DNA from: a virus
DNA: 22,328 nt
Direction: 5' to 3' (one strand)
IMG/VR virus record: IMGVR_UViG_3300040801_001569
Location: 1-22,328 of that record
Made by a program: the position numbers and the translations under genes. Below, piece by piece: positions 4,183 to 22,210 of the stretch; the first letter of the stretch is position 1; every line of letters begins with the position of its first letter. The notes under the pieces were generated by a model. The model worked only from the letters and a program-made list of their open reading frames with translations, made no database searches and was not told the origin of the DNA.

Positions 4183-5033
4183 CCAATACAGCGGAACAAA
4201 AAACATTGCGTCAGTTAATCGAAGAGCGATTGACCGACGAAAAATACAATCAAGAGCAGGTGCGAACCTACGCAGTTTATTGTCAGGGACTCCTCAACGC
4301 TAAAAACAAGCAGGGACAACCGCAAAACCCATGGATGAGTCGAATGCACCCAGACCGATTAGCGAGTGAATTCAAAGCAATCGCGGCTGAGGGGTTAGTG
4401 TTCGACGGTAAGCACATCACATGGCAATCAACCGGGGTGAGTTTCGATTACGTGGCGTACAAAAACAAAATGCTGGTAGTGTACCCGGATTCAAAAATTG
4501 ACCTTCAAGTGGTGTATCAAGATGACACTTTTTCAGTTTCAAAAGAGTCAGGACGAGTAGAGTACAGTCACACGATTGCTGACCCATTTGGAAACGATGA
4601 GAGCAAAATCAAAGGCGCGTACTGCATCATCAAAAACATACGCGGTGAGTTCATCACTACTTTGAGCCTAGCGGAAATTCAAAAGCATCGTAGCGTAGCT
4701 AAAACTGACTACATCTGGGCTGCGTGGTTCAAAGAAATGACACTCAAAACGGTTATCAAAAAAGCCGTCAAATATCACTTCGACGACATTTACGTGAACA
4801 TTGAGCAGCGTGACAATGAGCAATACGACCCGGGTAAGGTCGTGACCAATGACAAGCCTACCGATGAGCAGATTGAGCAGACTCTTGCTGACTTGGACGG
4901 TTGTAAAACACTCGATGAAGCGCGCAAGTTTCACATTGGCTTGAGTCCGGCTATCCGAAACGATGACCGGGTACTAGAAGTGGTGGAGGGGTTATCAGAA
5001 AAATTTAAGCAAGACGAAAATGAAAATTCTTAA
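4179..5033 (+). CDS. recT: RecT-family single-strand annealing protein
   Basis: This 284-aa protein matches the RecT family in length and layout: an N-terminal helical part, a central MHPDRLASEFKAIAAEGLVFDGKHI segment (56-80), then a beta-rich core that includes VVYPDSKIDLQVVYQDD and GAYCIIKNIRGE. A conserved-looking TDYIWAAWFKEMTLKTVIKKAVKY stretch and an acidic C-terminal end follow. RecT binds ssDNA made by a 5'-3' exonuclease and anneals complementary strands, giving RecA-independent recombination. The partner exonuclease gene follows with a 14-base overlap, the standard pairing. The acidic, disordered tail probably serves partner contacts. Confidence 0.85.
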   Translation: MTNTAEQKTLRQLIEERLTDEKYNQEQVRTYAVYCQGLLNAKNKQGQPQNPWMSRMHPDRLASEFKAIAAEGLVFDGKHITWQSTGVSFDYVAYKNKMLVVYPDSKIDLQVVYQDDTFSVSKESGRVEYSHTIADPFGNDESKIKGAYCIIKNIRGEFITTLSLAEIQKHRSVAKTDYIWAAWFKEMTLKTVIKKAVKYHFDDIYVNIEQRDNEQYDPGKVVTNDKPTDEQIEQTLADLDGCKTLDEARKFHIGLSPAIRNDDRVLEVVEGLSEKFKQDENENS

Positions 5034-10747: not shown

Positions 10748-11068
10748 ATGCCCAAATCAAAAAAGCGTAAAAACAAAGTGGTCGATGTCAGCAAATTAAA
10801 AGATGACAAAAAGCAAATGCAGATACCAGTCACAGTCGGTGGTCGAGACTTTATCGCGTTACTGGAAGTTTCAAAGGACGCGAACGCTGAACAAATTGCT
10901 GCTGCCAAGCGCAACGTACACTTCCTTATTGCAAAGCAAATGGACGAGGCGTGGAGACAGGCAAGCTGGTGGAAAAAACTATACCGGCGAACAATCAACT
11001 TCTTCAAAAGCAGTCCAGCAACCCGGCGCGCAAACGCAATCATTCACGACCGGGACGCTGGAGAATAG
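10748..11068 (+). CDS. Unknown basic protein (106 aa)
   Basis: The N-terminus is a Lys/Arg cluster (MPKSKKRKNKVVDVSKLKDDKK). A predicted helical centre (EQIAAAKRNVHFLIAKQMDEAW) and a second basic patch (WWKKLYRRTINFFKSSPATRR) follow. Overall this looks like a nucleic-acid-binding protein, with a moderately amphipathic helix at about 70-90. It lies directly before the structured RNA, with only 2 bases between its stop and the RNA's -10 box. An RNA-binding role is tempting but rests on position and charge alone. Confidence 0.6.
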   Translation: MPKSKKRKNKVVDVSKLKDDKKQMQIPVTVGGRDFIALLEVSKDANAEQIAAAKRNVHFLIAKQMDEAWRQASWWKKLYRRTINFFKSSPATRRANAIIHDRDAGE

Positions 11069-11070
11069 GG

Positions 11071-11076
11071 TATACT
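11071..11076 (+). promoter_or_regulatory. -10 box TATACT of the structured RNA
   Basis: TATACT follows the stop codon of the upstream gene by 2 bases. The expected start, 7 bases on, is 11083, exactly the first base of the long closing helix of the RNA. No consensus -35 is seen, so an activator or read-through from upstream may contribute. Confidence 0.5.
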
Positions 11077-11082
11077 TACCAC

Positions 11083-11417
11083 GTGCGCTCCGCGCTGGTG
11101 AGGCGCAAAAGTTGACGCTATGGCAGTTCCCAGCCTGTTGAGGCAAAACGTGGAAGTTGGTCAAAAGAGGCTAGCCGGAATCGCTGTTCCTTTGGGAGCA
11201 TCGTGAACGGCGAGTTGCCTCTGGCGATTGACGGAAGCGTCGCGCTGAGGGACGAACACTGCCTAAACATGGGAATTGCAAGGTGACTAAACCGTACCGG
11301 ACTATAAATCTGGGGTTCGGGGAAATCCTTGCCACCAGCGCCGAGCGCGCGGTACGCTAGTTCTTTTAACAATCCATACCTCCAACATAGCAATTAACAC
11401 CAGCAATGGTGTTTTTT
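11083..11417 (+). ncRNA. Large structured non-coding RNA (about 335 nt) of unknown class
   Basis: No credible protein gene occupies 11069-11451. A 15-bp closing helix joins 11083-11098 to 11335-11350: 8 pairs including one G-U, a C-C mismatch, then 7 pairs. Inside are at least three arms. Arm A runs 11112-11164, with TTGAC/GTCAA at its base and a GCCT-GTTG-AGGC cap. Arm B runs 11166-11222, with AGAGGC/GCCTCT and TCGCTGTTC/GAACGGCGA, 6 and 9 pairs. Arm C runs 11278-11332, with GCAAGG/CCTTGC enclosing CCGGA-7nt-TCTGG. GGC/GCC (11223-11225/11261-11263) may close a fourth. A -10 box upstream and an intrinsic terminator at 11396-11417 bound the unit. It does not match tmRNA, RNase P, SRP, 6S or group I intron landmarks known to me. 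Confidence 0.65.
11396..11417 (+). terminator. Rho-independent terminator of the structured RNA
   Basis: AACACC (11396-11401) pairs with GGTGTT (11408-11413) around a 6-base loop, and six T run from 11412 to 11417. The -35 of the following leaderless promoter starts inside this T run, a very compact arrangement. Confidence 0.8.
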
Positions 11418-11445
11418 GCTTTTAACAGGTGCAAGCTGGTACAAT
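11416..11445 (+). promoter_or_regulatory. Leaderless promoter of the ninG-like gene
   Basis: TTGCTT (11416-11421), 18 bases, and the extended -10 TGGTACAAT (11437-11445). Counting 7 bases from the -10 end gives 11452, the first base of the GTG start codon, so the mRNA is probably leaderless. The same spacing occurs before 19322 and 21866. Confidence 0.6.
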
Positions 11446-11451
11446 AAGGGG

Positions 11452-12021
11452 GTGAAGCGTAGCGGATTCAAAAGACCGTCATATGACGAATATGTTAAAA
11501 AACAACGCCAAAAACAGGCGCGCAAATTAACTGCGAGTAAGACGGTCAAAAAACCTGCAATCAAGAAAAAACAGGTACCGGGCAAAACCAAATACCCCTC
11601 ACACGCTGGAGTCCGTAACTCTCGGCGGTGGGTGGGTTACAAAGGGGCGTTTTGGGCAATCTTTTCAATGTACACGCGCAAGCGTGATTTTCTGCGTTAT
11701 GGGGGTCGGTGCGTTTCATGTCCAAGAATTCTAGAAGATTGGCGCGACGGCGACGCTGGGCATTACGTTTCAGTGTCCCGAGGTGGTATTGACCTTTGCT
11801 TTGATGAGGACAATGTTCATCTGCAATGCAAACGATGTAACAATCCGGCTTGGACGGTAGACGCTGGGTTGCCGTTTGGCATGGAAGTTGACCGCCGGCT
11901 CGGAGATGGGGTCGCCCGGAAATTGCTTGAGCGCTCATTCAAAGAGACTGGTAAAGAGCCTAGTCAGGATGAGTACAAGCGACTCGTAGAGATTTATAAA
12001 GATAAATTTGATGCATTATGA
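11452..12021 (+). CDS. ninG: NinG-like recombination protein (lambda Rap/NinG family)
   Basis: I start at GTG 11452, giving VKRSGFKRPSYDEY, because NinG proteins begin close to a KRSGFKR-type basic motif and the leaderless promoter points to this base. A TTG at 11416 would lie in the terminator. The 189-aa product has a basic N-terminus. A zinc/HNH-like centre follows, with CVSCPRILEDWRDGDAGHYVSVSRGG, then HLQCKRCNNP. The C-terminus is helical (RKLLERSFKETGKEPSQDEYKRLVEIYKDKF). The Cys pairs and GHY(V/I)S motif are NinG hallmarks. NinG/Rap is a structure-specific endonuclease acting on branched DNA made during phage recombination, which complements RecT and YqaJ. It overlaps the next gene by 4 bases. 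Confidence 0.8.
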   Translation: MKRSGFKRPSYDEYVKKQRQKQARKLTASKTVKKPAIKKKQVPGKTKYPSHAGVRNSRRWVGYKGAFWAIFSMYTRKRDFLRYGGRCVSCPRILEDWRDGDAGHYVSVSRGGIDLCFDEDNVHLQCKRCNNPAWTVDAGLPFGMEVDRRLGDGVARKLLERSFKETGKEPSQDEYKRLVEIYKDKFDAL

Positions 12022-12575
12022 AATGGACACCAAAAACAGTCCCACTCGCTGATTTGAAACCGGCGGAATACAACCCCCGGCGTCAAAACAAAAAAGCCAA
12101 AAAAGCGTTTCAGAAAAACGCTGAAGAATTTGGCAACCTCGAACCGATTGTTGTGAACGCTGACGGCACAATCATCGGTGGTCACCAGCGTTACTACATT
12201 GCTATCGAGAACGGCGCTCAGGAAATGGAAGTCTTCATGCCTGATAAACCACTGAGTCAGGAAGATGAAATGGAGCTGAACGTAATTCTTAACAGCGTAA
12301 CTGGGCACACTGTCCTCGATAAATTACTCGAGAACAAACTCGACCAAGCGACTCTGGATGAATTAGGGTTCCGAGAGTTTCGACTGCCGGTAGTCAAAGC
12401 ACCGGACACCGCTGTTGTTGAGCAGGGTAAGCAAAAAAACCCTAGCGTGCTGGCACTATTCTTCGAAGTAGATGACATCATCGAAGTGAAGCGAGTGTTG
12501 AAAAAAATTATTAAGGATGAAGATAGCGTCGACGGCGTTGCTACAGCCATAATGCACCTTGAATCGTATGTCTAA
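12018..12575 (+). CDS. ParB/Srx-fold protein 1 of the DNA-modification cluster
   Basis: The 185-aa protein starts with a ParB N-terminal fold: VPLADLKPAEYNPRRQ (NPR at 19-21), a helical stretch, NLEPIVVNADG, then IIGGHQRYYIA with the GGHQR motif at 54-58. In ParB-like nucleotide hydrolases and phage modification proteins this motif binds phosphate or nucleotide. No helix-turn-helix partition domain follows; the C-terminal 90 residues are a different helical and beta segment. ParB-fold proteins lacking the DNA-partition domain recur beside TET/JBP dioxygenases and glycosyltransferases in phages. It overlaps both neighbours, so the cluster is probably one translational unit. Confidence 0.75.
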   Translation: MKWTPKTVPLADLKPAEYNPRRQNKKAKKAFQKNAEEFGNLEPIVVNADGTIIGGHQRYYIAIENGAQEMEVFMPDKPLSQEDEMELNVILNSVTGHTVLDKLLENKLDQATLDELGFREFRLPVVKAPDTAVVEQGKQKNPSVLALFFEVDDIIEVKRVLKKIIKDEDSVDGVATAIMHLESYV

Positions 12576-13143
12576 AGAAATCACATGGAGCAATGAGTTG
12601 GTCCCGGTCAGCAAATTGCAAGGCTACAAAGCGAACCCCCGGGAAATTACAAAAGACAATCTAGCTCGACTCAAGCGAAGCCTCAAAAAATACAGTCAGG
12701 TAAAACCATTGCTTTGCGATAAGGATTACACTGTCATTGGGGGCAATCAGCGACTCAGCCTGTTTGAAAAAGGTGAAGTGTGGGTGCGAGTACCACACCG
12801 CAAGTTAACTGCTGATGAAGTCAAGAAAATGGCAATCGTTCACAATAACAAAATCGGTGACTGGGACTTCGACAAGCTCGGGTCGCTAGGATTCGAAGAT
12901 GACACGCTGGTAGACGTGTTTGGGTTTGACCAAGAGCTCATTAACGAACTAGGGTTTGACTTCGATGACCTTGACTTTGATGACATGGATGAAGACCGGG
13001 TTATCAAAAAACTGCTTGTGTCGTTTCCAAAAGACGTAGATGTTGAGGCGATGACCAAACGAATCACGACCAAATTGCAAGTCGAGACGTTTGAAGAGGC
13101 GTTACTAATTCTAATTCAACGATATGAAGACAATCAATCTTAA
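12568..13143 (+). CDS. ParB/Srx-fold protein 2 of the DNA-modification cluster
   Basis: I choose the ATG at 12568 (MSKEITWSNE), overlapping the previous stop, over the TTG at 12559. The 191-aa product repeats the ParB plan of its neighbour: LVPVSKLQGYKANPREI (NPR at 23-25), VKPLLCDKDYTVIGGNQRLSLFEKG (GGNQR at 58-62), then HNNKIGDWDFDKLGSLGF. It adds a very acidic stretch at about 129-143 (LGFDFDDLDFDDMDED) that could mimic DNA or bind a basic partner. The pair looks like an old tandem duplication that diverged, perhaps acting as a heterodimer. A role in preparing or removing the base or nucleotide donor is inferred from the cluster. Confidence 0.75.
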   Translation: MSKEITWSNELVPVSKLQGYKANPREITKDNLARLKRSLKKYSQVKPLLCDKDYTVIGGNQRLSLFEKGEVWVRVPHRKLTADEVKKMAIVHNNKIGDWDFDKLGSLGFEDDTLVDVFGFDQELINELGFDFDDLDFDDMDEDRVIKKLLVSFPKDVDVEAMTKRITTKLQVETFEEALLILIQRYEDNQS

Positions 13144-13909
13144 AGAGGTGATGCCGGACCCAAAAGAGCTCATCAAGCAACCGGGTGACTTGGCGCATGG
13201 CGAAATTGCGCTCGATGAAGAGTTCATCGGGGTAGATGAGCATGGGGTAGTCCAATTGGTGTACACCAAACTGCCAGACGTTAAGGAAACCAAAATGTAC
13301 AAGGCACTGGTGAAAAAACTCCAGTACAACACCACACAACGCGTCAGTGGGCTGGTTACCACTTCAACCATTTTTGGGTACGCGCCACCGGTGGAGATGC
13401 GTCAGAAGCCATTTTGCTCAAGTACCAAAGTCGCTGAAGAACAGCCAAAAGAGAATCGATTCCTCGGGTGGTACTGTGAGAAATTCATCATGCCACTGTT
13501 CGAGCAACATTACGCGGATAACCTCAAACAGCACATGGAGGTGCTAGCGGCTGAGGGGCTAAAAGACGATTGGATTATGAAAGGGACTATCTTTACTGGA
13601 GGGGTGATTAACAAAGCCAATCAGCTCAACTACCACATCGACTCGCAAAACATCAAAGGCACAATCAACGCTATGGTGTACTTTGCTCGGGACATGGACG
13701 GTGGAGAGCTCGTGCTACCAAAATACAATGCCCGAATTGTGCCTCAAGATGAGTACGTATTGTTGTTCCGTAATGACTTGGTGCATGGAGTGGCACCGCT
13801 ACAGCCAAAAAATAAAGAGGCATACCGTTATTCAATCGTTTACTACGTGAACAACCGAATGCAAAACTGTGGGACGTTATCAGAGGAACTCGCTAAAGCA
13901 CGTGGGTAG
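13124..13909 (+). CDS. TET/JBP-family 2-oxoglutarate/Fe(II) dioxygenase
   Basis: This 261-aa protein has the family's key features. The metal motif H-x-D is at 171-173 (NYHIDSQN), and GGELVLP follows at 193-199. The distal His is H221 in LVHGVAPL, and R235 in YRYSIVYYV is the expected 2-oxoglutarate contact. Upstream, TTSTIFGYAPPVEMRQKPFC resembles the FG-x-x-P segment typical of TET/JBP enzymes. These oxidise the 5-methyl group of thymine (JBP) or 5-methylcytosine (TET) in DNA, making a hydroxymethyl handle. The glycosyltransferase two genes downstream would then act on it. All catalytic residues are present. It overlaps ParB-fold gene 2 by 20 bases. The substrate base cannot be told from sequence. 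Confidence 0.85.
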   Translation: MKTINLKEVMPDPKELIKQPGDLAHGEIALDEEFIGVDEHGVVQLVYTKLPDVKETKMYKALVKKLQYNTTQRVSGLVTTSTIFGYAPPVEMRQKPFCSSTKVAEEQPKENRFLGWYCEKFIMPLFEQHYADNLKQHMEVLAAEGLKDDWIMKGTIFTGGVINKANQLNYHIDSQNIKGTINAMVYFARDMDGGELVLPKYNARIVPQDEYVLLFRNDLVHGVAPLQPKNKEAYRYSIVYYVNNRMQNCGTLSEELAKARG

Positions 13910-13910
13910 T

Positions 13911-14066
13911 ATGTTCGAAGTCAGATTATTAAGTCAGTGGAGCGATAGTCAAGAGATTTTCTTTTGGCACTTCGGAGCGCATAATTGCGGTCACTGTTGG
14001 GGGTTCGACTTCTACATCTTTGGCGTAGGCGCCGGGTTTAGGGTCGTTAATAATCCAATGCCATGA
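13911..14066 (+). CDS. Aromatic/Gly-rich micro-protein between dioxygenase and glycosyltransferase (51 aa)
   Basis: The ATG at 13911 lies one base after the dioxygenase stop, and the gene ends by ATGA overlap with the glycosyltransferase. The 51 residues are unusually aromatic: FFWHFGAHNCGHCWGFDFYIFG, with a CxxC and three His nearby that could bind a metal. The core looks beta-like. Its tight placing inside the modification cluster suggests a small accessory, perhaps stabilising one of the enzymes or binding iron, but no family is known to me. Confidence 0.6.
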   Translation: MFEVRLLSQWSDSQEIFFWHFGAHNCGHCWGFDFYIFGVGAGFRVVNNPMP

Positions 14067-14992
14067 GGTCGCCTTACTTCCCAGCCGGTCGCATAAAAGT
14101 CTTTATTCCAAGTTACCAGCGCGCGGATAGCATAAAGACACATCGAGTGTTTGGTAACGAGAAATGGTGGGACACCAAAGTTGTGGTTCACACTGAGGAA
14201 GAAAAAGCTGAATACCTCAAACACAATCCCGAGCTTATGGGATGCATACTGGTTTCCAACGCTGATGGAATCGCAGGGCAACGGAAATTCATAGATGACC
14301 AAGTGGAGTTCGATGAGTGGTACTTATCTGGAGATGACGACATTGAAGCGATTACGGGGGTTACCGGCAAAAACTACGACTTGCCCGGGCAGTTACCTGA
14401 CAACCTCACAAAAGAGAATTACGGTCACGAGTATAAAGACTCCGAAACCAGACACCTCATGGTCGAGATGATGAAAGAGTCAGAGCGAATCGGTTGCAGA
14501 TTATTTGGATTCTCAGTTATGGACAATCCATTCTTCCGCAGTACCAAGTTACGCACCAACACGGTCATCAACGCGGGACTGTCTTGTACCAAAAAAAGCG
14601 CGGAGTGGGAGGTAGACACTGACATTCGACTTAAAGAGGATTACGAGCGCACCGCCAAGCATCTGCTGTATCATGGAATAACGCTCAGAAACGATTATGT
14701 GGCTATCAAAACCAAGATGTATACCAAAGGTGGGGTCGGTAGTTATAAAGACCGTGAGCGCGAATATGAGCAGTCTGTGGTGAAGCTGATGAACAATTAC
14801 CCGGGGCTATTTCGGAAAAACATGAGCCGGAACAACCCAAACGCTGAGGTACGCATTGTGCCGTCCACTAGTCAGCAAGTCGCATTGTGGAGATTACAGA
14901 TGATTCTCAAGGGGAAACTCCCCCCGGAATACGTGGACAAAATCCTCAACCCGGGACAGGCAATGCAATTTAAGAAAAAATATAACCTATAA
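14063..14992 (+). CDS. TAGT-type glycosyltransferase (TET/JBP-associated DNA glycosyltransferase)
   Basis: The 309-aa protein opens a GT-A-like fold: IKVFIPSYQRADSIKTHRVF (11-30), KVVVHTEEEKAEYLKHNP (39-56), then a strand CILVSNADGIAGQRKF and WYLSGDDDI (87-94). There D91-D93 supply the D-x-D metal and sugar-nucleotide motif. GDDDIEAI after an IAGQRKF-type helix is the mark of the TAGT group, found beside TET/JBP dioxygenases in phages. It would transfer a sugar from a nucleotide donor onto the hydroxymethyl base in DNA. It follows the dioxygenase in the same unit. An alternative substrate, such as a phage protein or the cell surface, cannot be excluded. Confidence 0.75.
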   Translation: MRSPYFPAGRIKVFIPSYQRADSIKTHRVFGNEKWWDTKVVVHTEEEKAEYLKHNPELMGCILVSNADGIAGQRKFIDDQVEFDEWYLSGDDDIEAITGVTGKNYDLPGQLPDNLTKENYGHEYKDSETRHLMVEMMKESERIGCRLFGFSVMDNPFFRSTKLRTNTVINAGLSCTKKSAEWEVDTDIRLKEDYERTAKHLLYHGITLRNDYVAIKTKMYTKGGVGSYKDREREYEQSVVKLMNNYPGLFRKNMSRNNPNAEVRIVPSTSQQVALWRLQMILKGKLPPEYVDKILNPGQAMQFKKKYNL

Positions 14993-15702: not shown

Positions 15703-15767
15703 TCTACTTAACCTAACCTAACTAAACCTAACTAAACCTAACTAAACCTAACTAAACTAAACATAAC
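15703..15767 (+). repeat. G-free tandem repeat tract between small and large terminase genes
   Basis: For 65 bases this strand has no G. The unit ACTAAACCTA is repeated three times without mismatch at 15721-15730, 15731-15740 and 15741-15750, with imperfect copies on both sides (ACCTAACCTA before, ACTAAACTAA after). The period of 10 matches one helical turn. Sites with this layout next to terminase genes in other phages are small-terminase binding (pac or cosB-like) sites. A related, looser tract is at 1036-1080. Confidence 0.85.
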
Positions 15768-21438: not shown

Positions 21439-21807
21439 ATGTCAGACAAAGCACCAATCTATAAACCCGGCTCTATCGTCACTCACTCTGGCGGAACATA
21501 CGCGAAAGTGCTCCAGGTTAAGTACGGCGTACACATTTGTACTGACTGGTTCGACACCATGGCTGCTGCTAAAAAGGCAGACGAAGTCGGACTCGTTCGG
21601 TTCAATGAAAGCGCTCGTTCACAACTGGGCATCAAGCTGGCTTCCCAAGGGGGTAAAACTGGCGATGAGCCGAAACCATCTGACGCTGTTGTTGCTCTTG
21701 CAAAAGAGAACAACGTAGACCTCTCGACTGTGAAAGGTACTGGCGCAAATGGCAATATCCTTATTGACGATGTGAAAGCCGTCATTAAGGAACGTGACAG
21801 CAAGTAA
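21439..21807 (+). CDS. Capsid-associated protein with E3-binding-like (PSBD) C-terminal domain
   Basis: The 122-aa protein has an N-terminal beta-like part at 1-55 (IYKPGSIVTHSGGTYAKVLQ, VHICTDWFDTM), then a helix and a flexible charged link at about 70-82. From about 80 to 118 it shows SDAVVALAKENNVDLSTVKG, then TGANGNILIDDVKAVI. That is the peripheral-subunit-binding fold of 2-oxoacid dehydrogenase E2 proteins (xAxxLAxExGVDLxxVxGTGxxGRIxxxDV). Such domains on phage head proteins act as small protein-docking modules, for decoration or head fibres. It follows the capsid gene, where decoration proteins lie. It has a TAAGG 13 bases before the start, a weak Shine-Dalgarno sequence. Confidence 0.7.
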   Translation: MSDKAPIYKPGSIVTHSGGTYAKVLQVKYGVHICTDWFDTMAAAKKADEVGLVRFNESARSQLGIKLASQGGKTGDEPKPSDAVVALAKENNVDLSTVKGTGANGNILIDDVKAVIKERDSK

Positions 21808-21820
21808 TTGCTTCACTACT

Positions 21821-21844
21821 GCGCTTCTGATTATTCGGAGGCGC
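21821..21844 (+). other. Hairpin at the -35 position of the next promoter
   Basis: GCGCTTC (21821-21827) can pair with GAGGCGC (21838-21844) around a 10-base loop. No T run follows, so it is not an intrinsic terminator. It covers the -35 zone of the promoter at 21851 and may be an operator or an mRNA 3'-end stabiliser for the upstream gene. Confidence 0.4.
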
Positions 21845-21859
21845 GGATAGTGATACAAT
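21831..21859 (+). promoter_or_regulatory. Leaderless promoter before the BppU-like gene
   Basis: The extended -10 TGATACAAT (21851-21859) ends 6 bases before the ATG; counting 7 gives 21866, the start codon itself. TTATTC (21831-21836) with a 17-base spacer is a weak -35. Confidence 0.55.
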
Positions 21860-21865
21860 GGACAT

Positions 21866-22210
21866 ATGAACAAAAACATTTGCCAGTACAAGGGCGACAC
21901 CCACAAATTGAGTTTAGAGTTTACGGCTGAGGTGGACGGCGTAGAGACTCCGCATGACATTACCGGCTCTACAATCGTCCTCACGCTGAAAAAAAAGAAA
22001 AGTGACAGCGATGCACAGGCTTTGCTTACAAAAACCGTTACAAGTCATTCTGAGCCAACTGAGGGACGTACAGTTATCGTGATTGACCCGGCAGACATTG
22101 CCACTTTGGATTATTGCGATTACGTGTACGACATTGTGATGACGCAAGGTTCAACGGTCAACACGGTGCAGGTCGGACACTGGGAGATTCAAGAGCGCGT
22201 AAAAGATTAG
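21866..22210 (+). CDS. Baseplate upper protein-like / Ig-like N-terminal domain protein
   Basis: The 114-aa product has the form of the N-terminal domain of baseplate upper proteins (BppU). It shows a start with YKGDTHKLSLEFTAEVDG, then DITGSTIVLTLKKKK, a GRTVIVIDPADIATLDYCDYVYDIVM stretch and a final GHWEIQERV. The order of 'x-G-D-T', 'D-I-T-G-S/A-T/x' and 'Y-x-Y-D-I/V' is typical. In other phages this domain attaches receptor-binding parts to the baseplate or tail. Here it stands alone, without a C-terminal domain, right after head genes, so it could also be a head-decoration Ig-like protein. It has its own leaderless promoter. Confidence 0.65.
   Translation: MNKNICQYKGDTHKLSLEFTAEVDGVETPHDITGSTIVLTLKKKKSDSDAQALLTKTVTSHSEPTEGRTVIVIDPADIATLDYCDYVYDIVMTQGSTVNTVQVGHWEIQERVKD

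Follow-up and report, generated by a model that had tools for sequence, protein, structure and literature searches.

The question raised by this locus is what occupies the 383 bases between a gene for a basic protein of 106 aa (10748-11068, + strand) and a ninG/Rap-like nuclease gene (11452-12021, + strand; Pfam NinG, E 5e-13) in the window, the whole 22,328-nucleotide stretch of viral DNA analysed here (IMG/VR record IMGVR_UViG_3300040801_001569). An initial annotation had placed an unclassified, self-contained structured RNA in this gap. Both the extent of the gap and the RNA were confirmed: a real structured RNA unit lies between the two genes. As far as sequence analysis reaches, the unit has a strong predicted fold, a conserved position, a closing helix with compensatory changes, a conserved core and flanking signal-like sequences.

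Positions 11083-11350 of the + strand fold with a predicted energy of -120.7 kcal/mol (z -5.3); 200 dinucleotide-shuffled versions gave -94.7 +/- 4.9, and none of them folded as well. The opposite strand has a weaker fold (-98.0, z -3.8). When the whole window was scanned coarsely in 260-nt frames, with 20 shuffles per frame, those over parts of the RNA region were among the stronger, not the strongest.

The two ends of the unit are joined by a helix, P1, in which the 5' strand (11083-11100) pairs with the 3' strand (11333-11350), both on the + strand. P1 comprises 18 positions, 11083-11090/11343-11350 and 11092-11100/11333-11341, with one C.C mismatch; its ensemble pair probabilities are 0.91-1.0, and an extra pair is found beyond it at 11082/11351. 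The 15-bp closing helix initially proposed is real, and extends inward by 2 bp more. The longest contiguous end-to-end helix in the window alone is 9 bp, a length that 190 of 3000 mononucleotide shuffles also attain; in the homologue described below it is 16 bp, attained by 1 of 3000.

A search of IMG/VR with the ninG protein identified two contigs, L002 and L003. Their ninG products are 65% identical to that of the window, which they match over numerous genes with protein identities of about 33-81%. Between ninG and a homologous basic ORF (37-40% identity between the window protein and its L002 counterpart), both contigs have a related RNA of about 215 nt. The two contigs look identical across the RNA and were therefore counted as one observation, so that the phages compared, which are related, supply two distinct sequences. 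The L002 RNA folds with a z of -6.7, for a stretch that takes in the downstream stem, and its opposite strand with a z of -3.8; in each phage the + strand has the stronger fold. The 5' block aligns between the window and L002 at 73% (E 1.6e-4). Among the 16 positions of P1 that were compared, 12 are identical pairs, two show two-sided compensatory changes, one shows a one-sided change, and one is paired only in L002, where the mismatch of the window is repaired; this mismatch excepted, the pair probability is about 1 in both phages. When the partner strands of P1 and P4 (see below) were slid by 1-3 columns, the share of paired cells fell from 98% to 34-44%. In a column-shuffle control, which is weak with two rows and cannot be strong because only two sequences are available, 61 of 500 shuffles reached the observed number of compensatory pairs. 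The initial annotation had suggested that homologous loci be gathered and inspected for compensatory changes; the L002/L003 locus supplies such changes in P1, from two distinct sequences only. The comparison of two homologues is thin, and the structure is a good candidate, not an established family.

Inside P1, a hairpin P2 (GGCG/CGCU, 11102-11119, + strand) is predicted with a probability of 0.89-0.99 in both genomes; its pairs are identical in the window and L002 and thus offer no covariation. Both P1 and P2 are supported. Helix P3, of 10 bp, pairs 11123-11132 with 11270-11279 on the + strand with a probability of 0.99 in the window. At the equivalent places L002 has the complementary strands GUUCGG/CCGAAC, with two compensatory changes, but the energy model favours GUUCGG/CCGGAC instead. 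Within P3 lies a variable arm (11133-11269, + strand) of about 137 nt; assuming the GUUCGG/CCGAAC pairing, its L002 counterpart measures about 28 nt. The conserved core TGCAAGGTGACTAAACC-GTACCGGAC (11277-11302, + strand) matches L002 at 85% over 27 columns, with a pairwise E of 4e-4. A possible helix P4 would pair GCAAGG at 11278-11283 (+ strand) with CCTTGC at 11327-11332; GCAAGG/CCUUGC in the window corresponds to GCAAGA/UCUUGC in L002, one compensatory change, and the predicted probability of the helix is 0.04 or less (0.04 in the window, near 0 in L002). The P3 and P4 helices of the comparison were chosen by eye and are not those chosen by the energy model in L002, so that support for P3 is limited to the window and P4 is a suggestion. 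Simultaneous folding and alignment with a home-made script again gave P1 and P2, and located P4 at a second copy of GCAAG in L002. Of two nested arms in the initial annotation, the outer one of 6 bp (11166-11171/11217-11222) has a probability of about 0.79 in the window, whereas the inner one of 9 bp (11181-11189/11205-11213) reaches 0.05, is disfavoured and is absent from the homologue. Because the interior folds of the two sequences are unlike, with different P3 partners and P4 not favoured, the internal arms proposed at first are unconfirmed. A tRNA-like reading of 11278-11337, made by eye, was dropped because L002 does not keep it.

The RNA is bracketed by signal-like sequences. A -10-like box, TATACT (11071-11076, + strand), predicts a start near 11083, at the foot of P1, as the initial annotation had it; no -35 hexamer was recognised for this box by the promoter scan. 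L002 has TATAAT at 4684, in the equivalent place 5' of P1. Downstream, the expected intrinsic terminator was found as a terminator-like stem with a T tail (AACACCA/TGGTGTT, 11396-11418, + strand, the stem itself being 11396-11413), and a stem of about -11 kcal/mol lies downstream of the RNA in L002. Another -10-like sequence, TACAAT (11440-11445, + strand), 12 bases 5' of the ninG start, is apparently a separate promoter, and TATAAT at 4965 precedes ninG in L002. These boxes are consensus matches, and the two-hexamer promoter scan listed neither of the window sites. The proximity of the -10-like box to the ninG start in both phages suggests a leaderless ninG mRNA, and since the box lies 3' of the terminator in both, the RNA need not belong to the ninG message. 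It looks like an independent gene rather than the leader of ninG.

Does this RNA belong to a known family? The Rfam covariance-model search that had been proposed for the segment matched no known family: Rfam 15 gave 0 matches in the window at the gathering score, a permissive search of 10980-11520 at E <= 10 returned only H19_2 (E 7.2), which lay outside the RNA on the opposite strand, and the L002 homologue had no Rfam match at E <= 1. No tRNA or tmRNA was detected in the window by ARAGORN, consistent with the earlier statement that the RNA is not a tmRNA. With no Rfam family, and with a homologue that keeps P1 through compensatory changes, the description as an unclassified, self-contained structured RNA stands. 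At the sequence level, and in two genomes, the conserved structure, lack of coding and own signals are those of the broad class of phage-encoded independent structured non-coding RNAs.

Several known RNAs invite comparison. 6S RNA, the RNA polymerase decoy, is a free-standing small RNA with a long closing helix, as is the RNA described here; however, 6S RNA is one hairpin with a central bubble, whereas the window RNA has a multi-branched predicted fold, and the Rfam model of 6S RNA is not matched by the window. The lambda 6S RNA, the late-promoter leader before tR', is a short, terminator-ended transcript near the nin genes and the late operon, and the window RNA would resemble it in all these respects. 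It differs in that no Q-like protein was identified here, that the ninG gene downstream has its own -10-like box, and that the window RNA has extensive conserved structure. GOLLD and ROOL are likewise phage- or prophage-encoded, stand-alone, structured and of unknown function. Their family models are not matched by the window, they often lie near tRNA islands while the window has no tRNA, and many GOLLD members exceed 800 nt, compared with about 270 nt here (PMC12286853); the initial suggestion of a member of the large ornate RNAs is thus not upheld. The put RNA of phage HK022, a protein-independent antiterminator, is also a phage RNA element close to a promoter, and the window RNA might similarly act on transcription. 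Unlike put, which acts in cis and consists of two stem-loops in about 70 nt (PMC9378689), the window RNA is three to four times longer and is closed by a long end-to-end helix, so that it departs from put in size and predicted shape.

The best reading of the sequence data is probably a new, narrowly distributed phage non-coding RNA. We hold with moderate confidence that the gap contains an independent gene for a trans-acting structured RNA, with its own promoter and terminator and probably binding a protein. Its own promoter, situated where the recombination/early genes give way to the ninG-to-terminase genes, would start transcription and its own intrinsic terminator would end it, giving an RNA of about 270-340 bases in the window. 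P1 would close the RNA end to end as a single domain of roughly 215-270 nt, the closed ends protecting the RNA, and the domain would carry the fixed small hairpin P2, the length-variable arm and the conserved core. We infer that the RNA acts in trans, the core binding a protein; candidate partners on the host side are RNA polymerase or a nuclease or defence protein, and on the phage side the upstream basic protein. The latter has no Pfam family above the cut-off, no solved relative at a meaningful E-value and no phage tblastn match at E <= 1, and its predicted structure, a modest model (pLDDT 72), has no PDB fold match at E <= 0.001. As it has neither a solved relative nor a fold match, its tie to the RNA is one of position only.

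The main rival, which we consider somewhat unlikely, is a cis-acting leader of the late operon that modifies RNA polymerase, or serves as the site of an N-like protein encoded by the basic ORF, and so allows read-through of the terminator (11396-11413), with ninG, the DNA-modification genes and the terminase transcribed as a result. The RNA lies directly 5' of a co-directional block from ninG to the structural genes, the order promoter-RNA-terminator is that of phage antitermination regions, the short basic protein is co-conserved alongside, and put provides a published protein-independent precedent (PMC9378689). On the other hand, the -10-like box of ninG follows the terminator in both phages, and the compact put contrasts with the 215-270 nt closed by P1 here.

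A bolder version of the trans-acting RNA, distinctly unlikely in our estimate, would make it the founder of a new RNA family in a little-known phage group with TET-type DNA-modification genes, controlling the early-to-late switch or blocking a host defence protein by binding through the core UGCAAGRUGACUAWAC..GUACCGGAC. Few structured RNAs of unknown function have come from phage genomes, and the small size of this one makes it amenable to testing; should it prove real, it would found a new family of RNAs from uncultivated phages and hint at regulation or counter-defence where early genes meet late ones.

P1 and P2 are also inverted repeats in the DNA, and the opposite strand beats its shuffles in both phages, as would be expected if a DNA-level element (a replication origin, or a recombination or packaging site) mimicked an RNA. 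This reading is quite improbable: the + strand has the better fold in both phages, promoter-like and terminator-like signals bracket the unit, and the G-U pairs of P1 (U-G at 11084/11349 in the window and at column 12 in L002) fit an RNA of the + strand only. A riboswitch or attenuator, in which ninG would be controlled by alternative pairings of the terminator, is highly improbable. The inner 5' strand of P1 can indeed pair with the 5' arm of the terminator in the window (shuffle p 0.03); the pairing is not seen in L002 (p 0.76), the terminator stands 45 nt past P1 with a stem of its own, and ninG has a separate -10-like box. A short protein-coding gene is hardly credible, in keeping with the initial view that the gap has no plausible gene, for although a 91-aa ORF with a TTG start lies on the minus strand (11118-11393), no convincing frame is shared by the window and L002 (best E 0.005, 29% identity, stops inside) and the two variable arms are unequal in length by about 110 nt, which argues against coding.

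The RNA is confined, among the collections searched, to the window and L002/L003: no more homologues were found in the IMG/VR scans, one genome scan, INPHARED or PLSDB (blastn). The IMG/VR queries were ninG (a single sequence and a 4-sequence alignment), the exact core, a relaxed core pattern, the basic protein, a 5' block pattern, the TET protein and the terminase. INPHARED held no DNA relative, and PLSDB gave only a 30-base fragment (E 0.3). The core-pattern matches in L008 and L013 are the same contigs as L002 and L003. The other core-pattern matches were attributed to chance, most by eye from the sequence: four in genomes, the only ones for which open frames were checked, lie within long open frames, and the folded stretch in L016 has a z of -0.11. 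Of 74 sources searched with a covariance model of P1 and P4, itself built from the window and L002, none gave a match except the window and the L002/L003 contigs; the match in the window is split, which was attributed to the long arm. L017, L019, L077 and L079, which are near by TET or terminase, gave no match and are short fragments starting downstream of the position. Three ninG relatives (L004, L005 and L024) had no match to the model and no counterpart on reading.

One of these, the more distant ninG relative L004, carries a different strongly folded hairpin RNA immediately 5' of ninG (4866-5000, z -4.7), not related in sequence as far as seen. Several matches to the hammerhead type II ribozyme, one above the Rfam threshold and the others below it, lie on one strand of L016, a phage contig that appears unrelated.

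Elsewhere in the window, positions 12018-14989 encode two ParB-like proteins, a TET/JBP-type 2OG oxygenase and a TET-associated glycosyltransferase-like protein, the last by a match below the Pfam cut-off, and this is likely to be a DNA-hypermodification cassette. A tandem repeat of about 10 bases (AACCTAACTA) lies just 5' of the large terminase gene (15709-15760); a similar repeat occurs at 5180-5220 of L013 and a related 15-base repeat at 1039-1080 of the window. The repeats near the terminase gene are possibly a packaging or protein-binding site. TACAAT-type boxes are found 12 bases before start codons (e.g. 11452, 19322 and 21866), and this spacing, together with the few visible Shine-Dalgarno sequences, suggests leaderless messages in the window. 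At the last of these sites, a long hairpin (21812-21855) stands directly 5' of the TACAAT box (21854) and the apparently leaderless ATG (21866), in a region (21711-21970) with a fold z of -4.4; in its counterpart in L013 (about 11401-11439) the arms differ at several places in a way that, by eye, seems compensatory.
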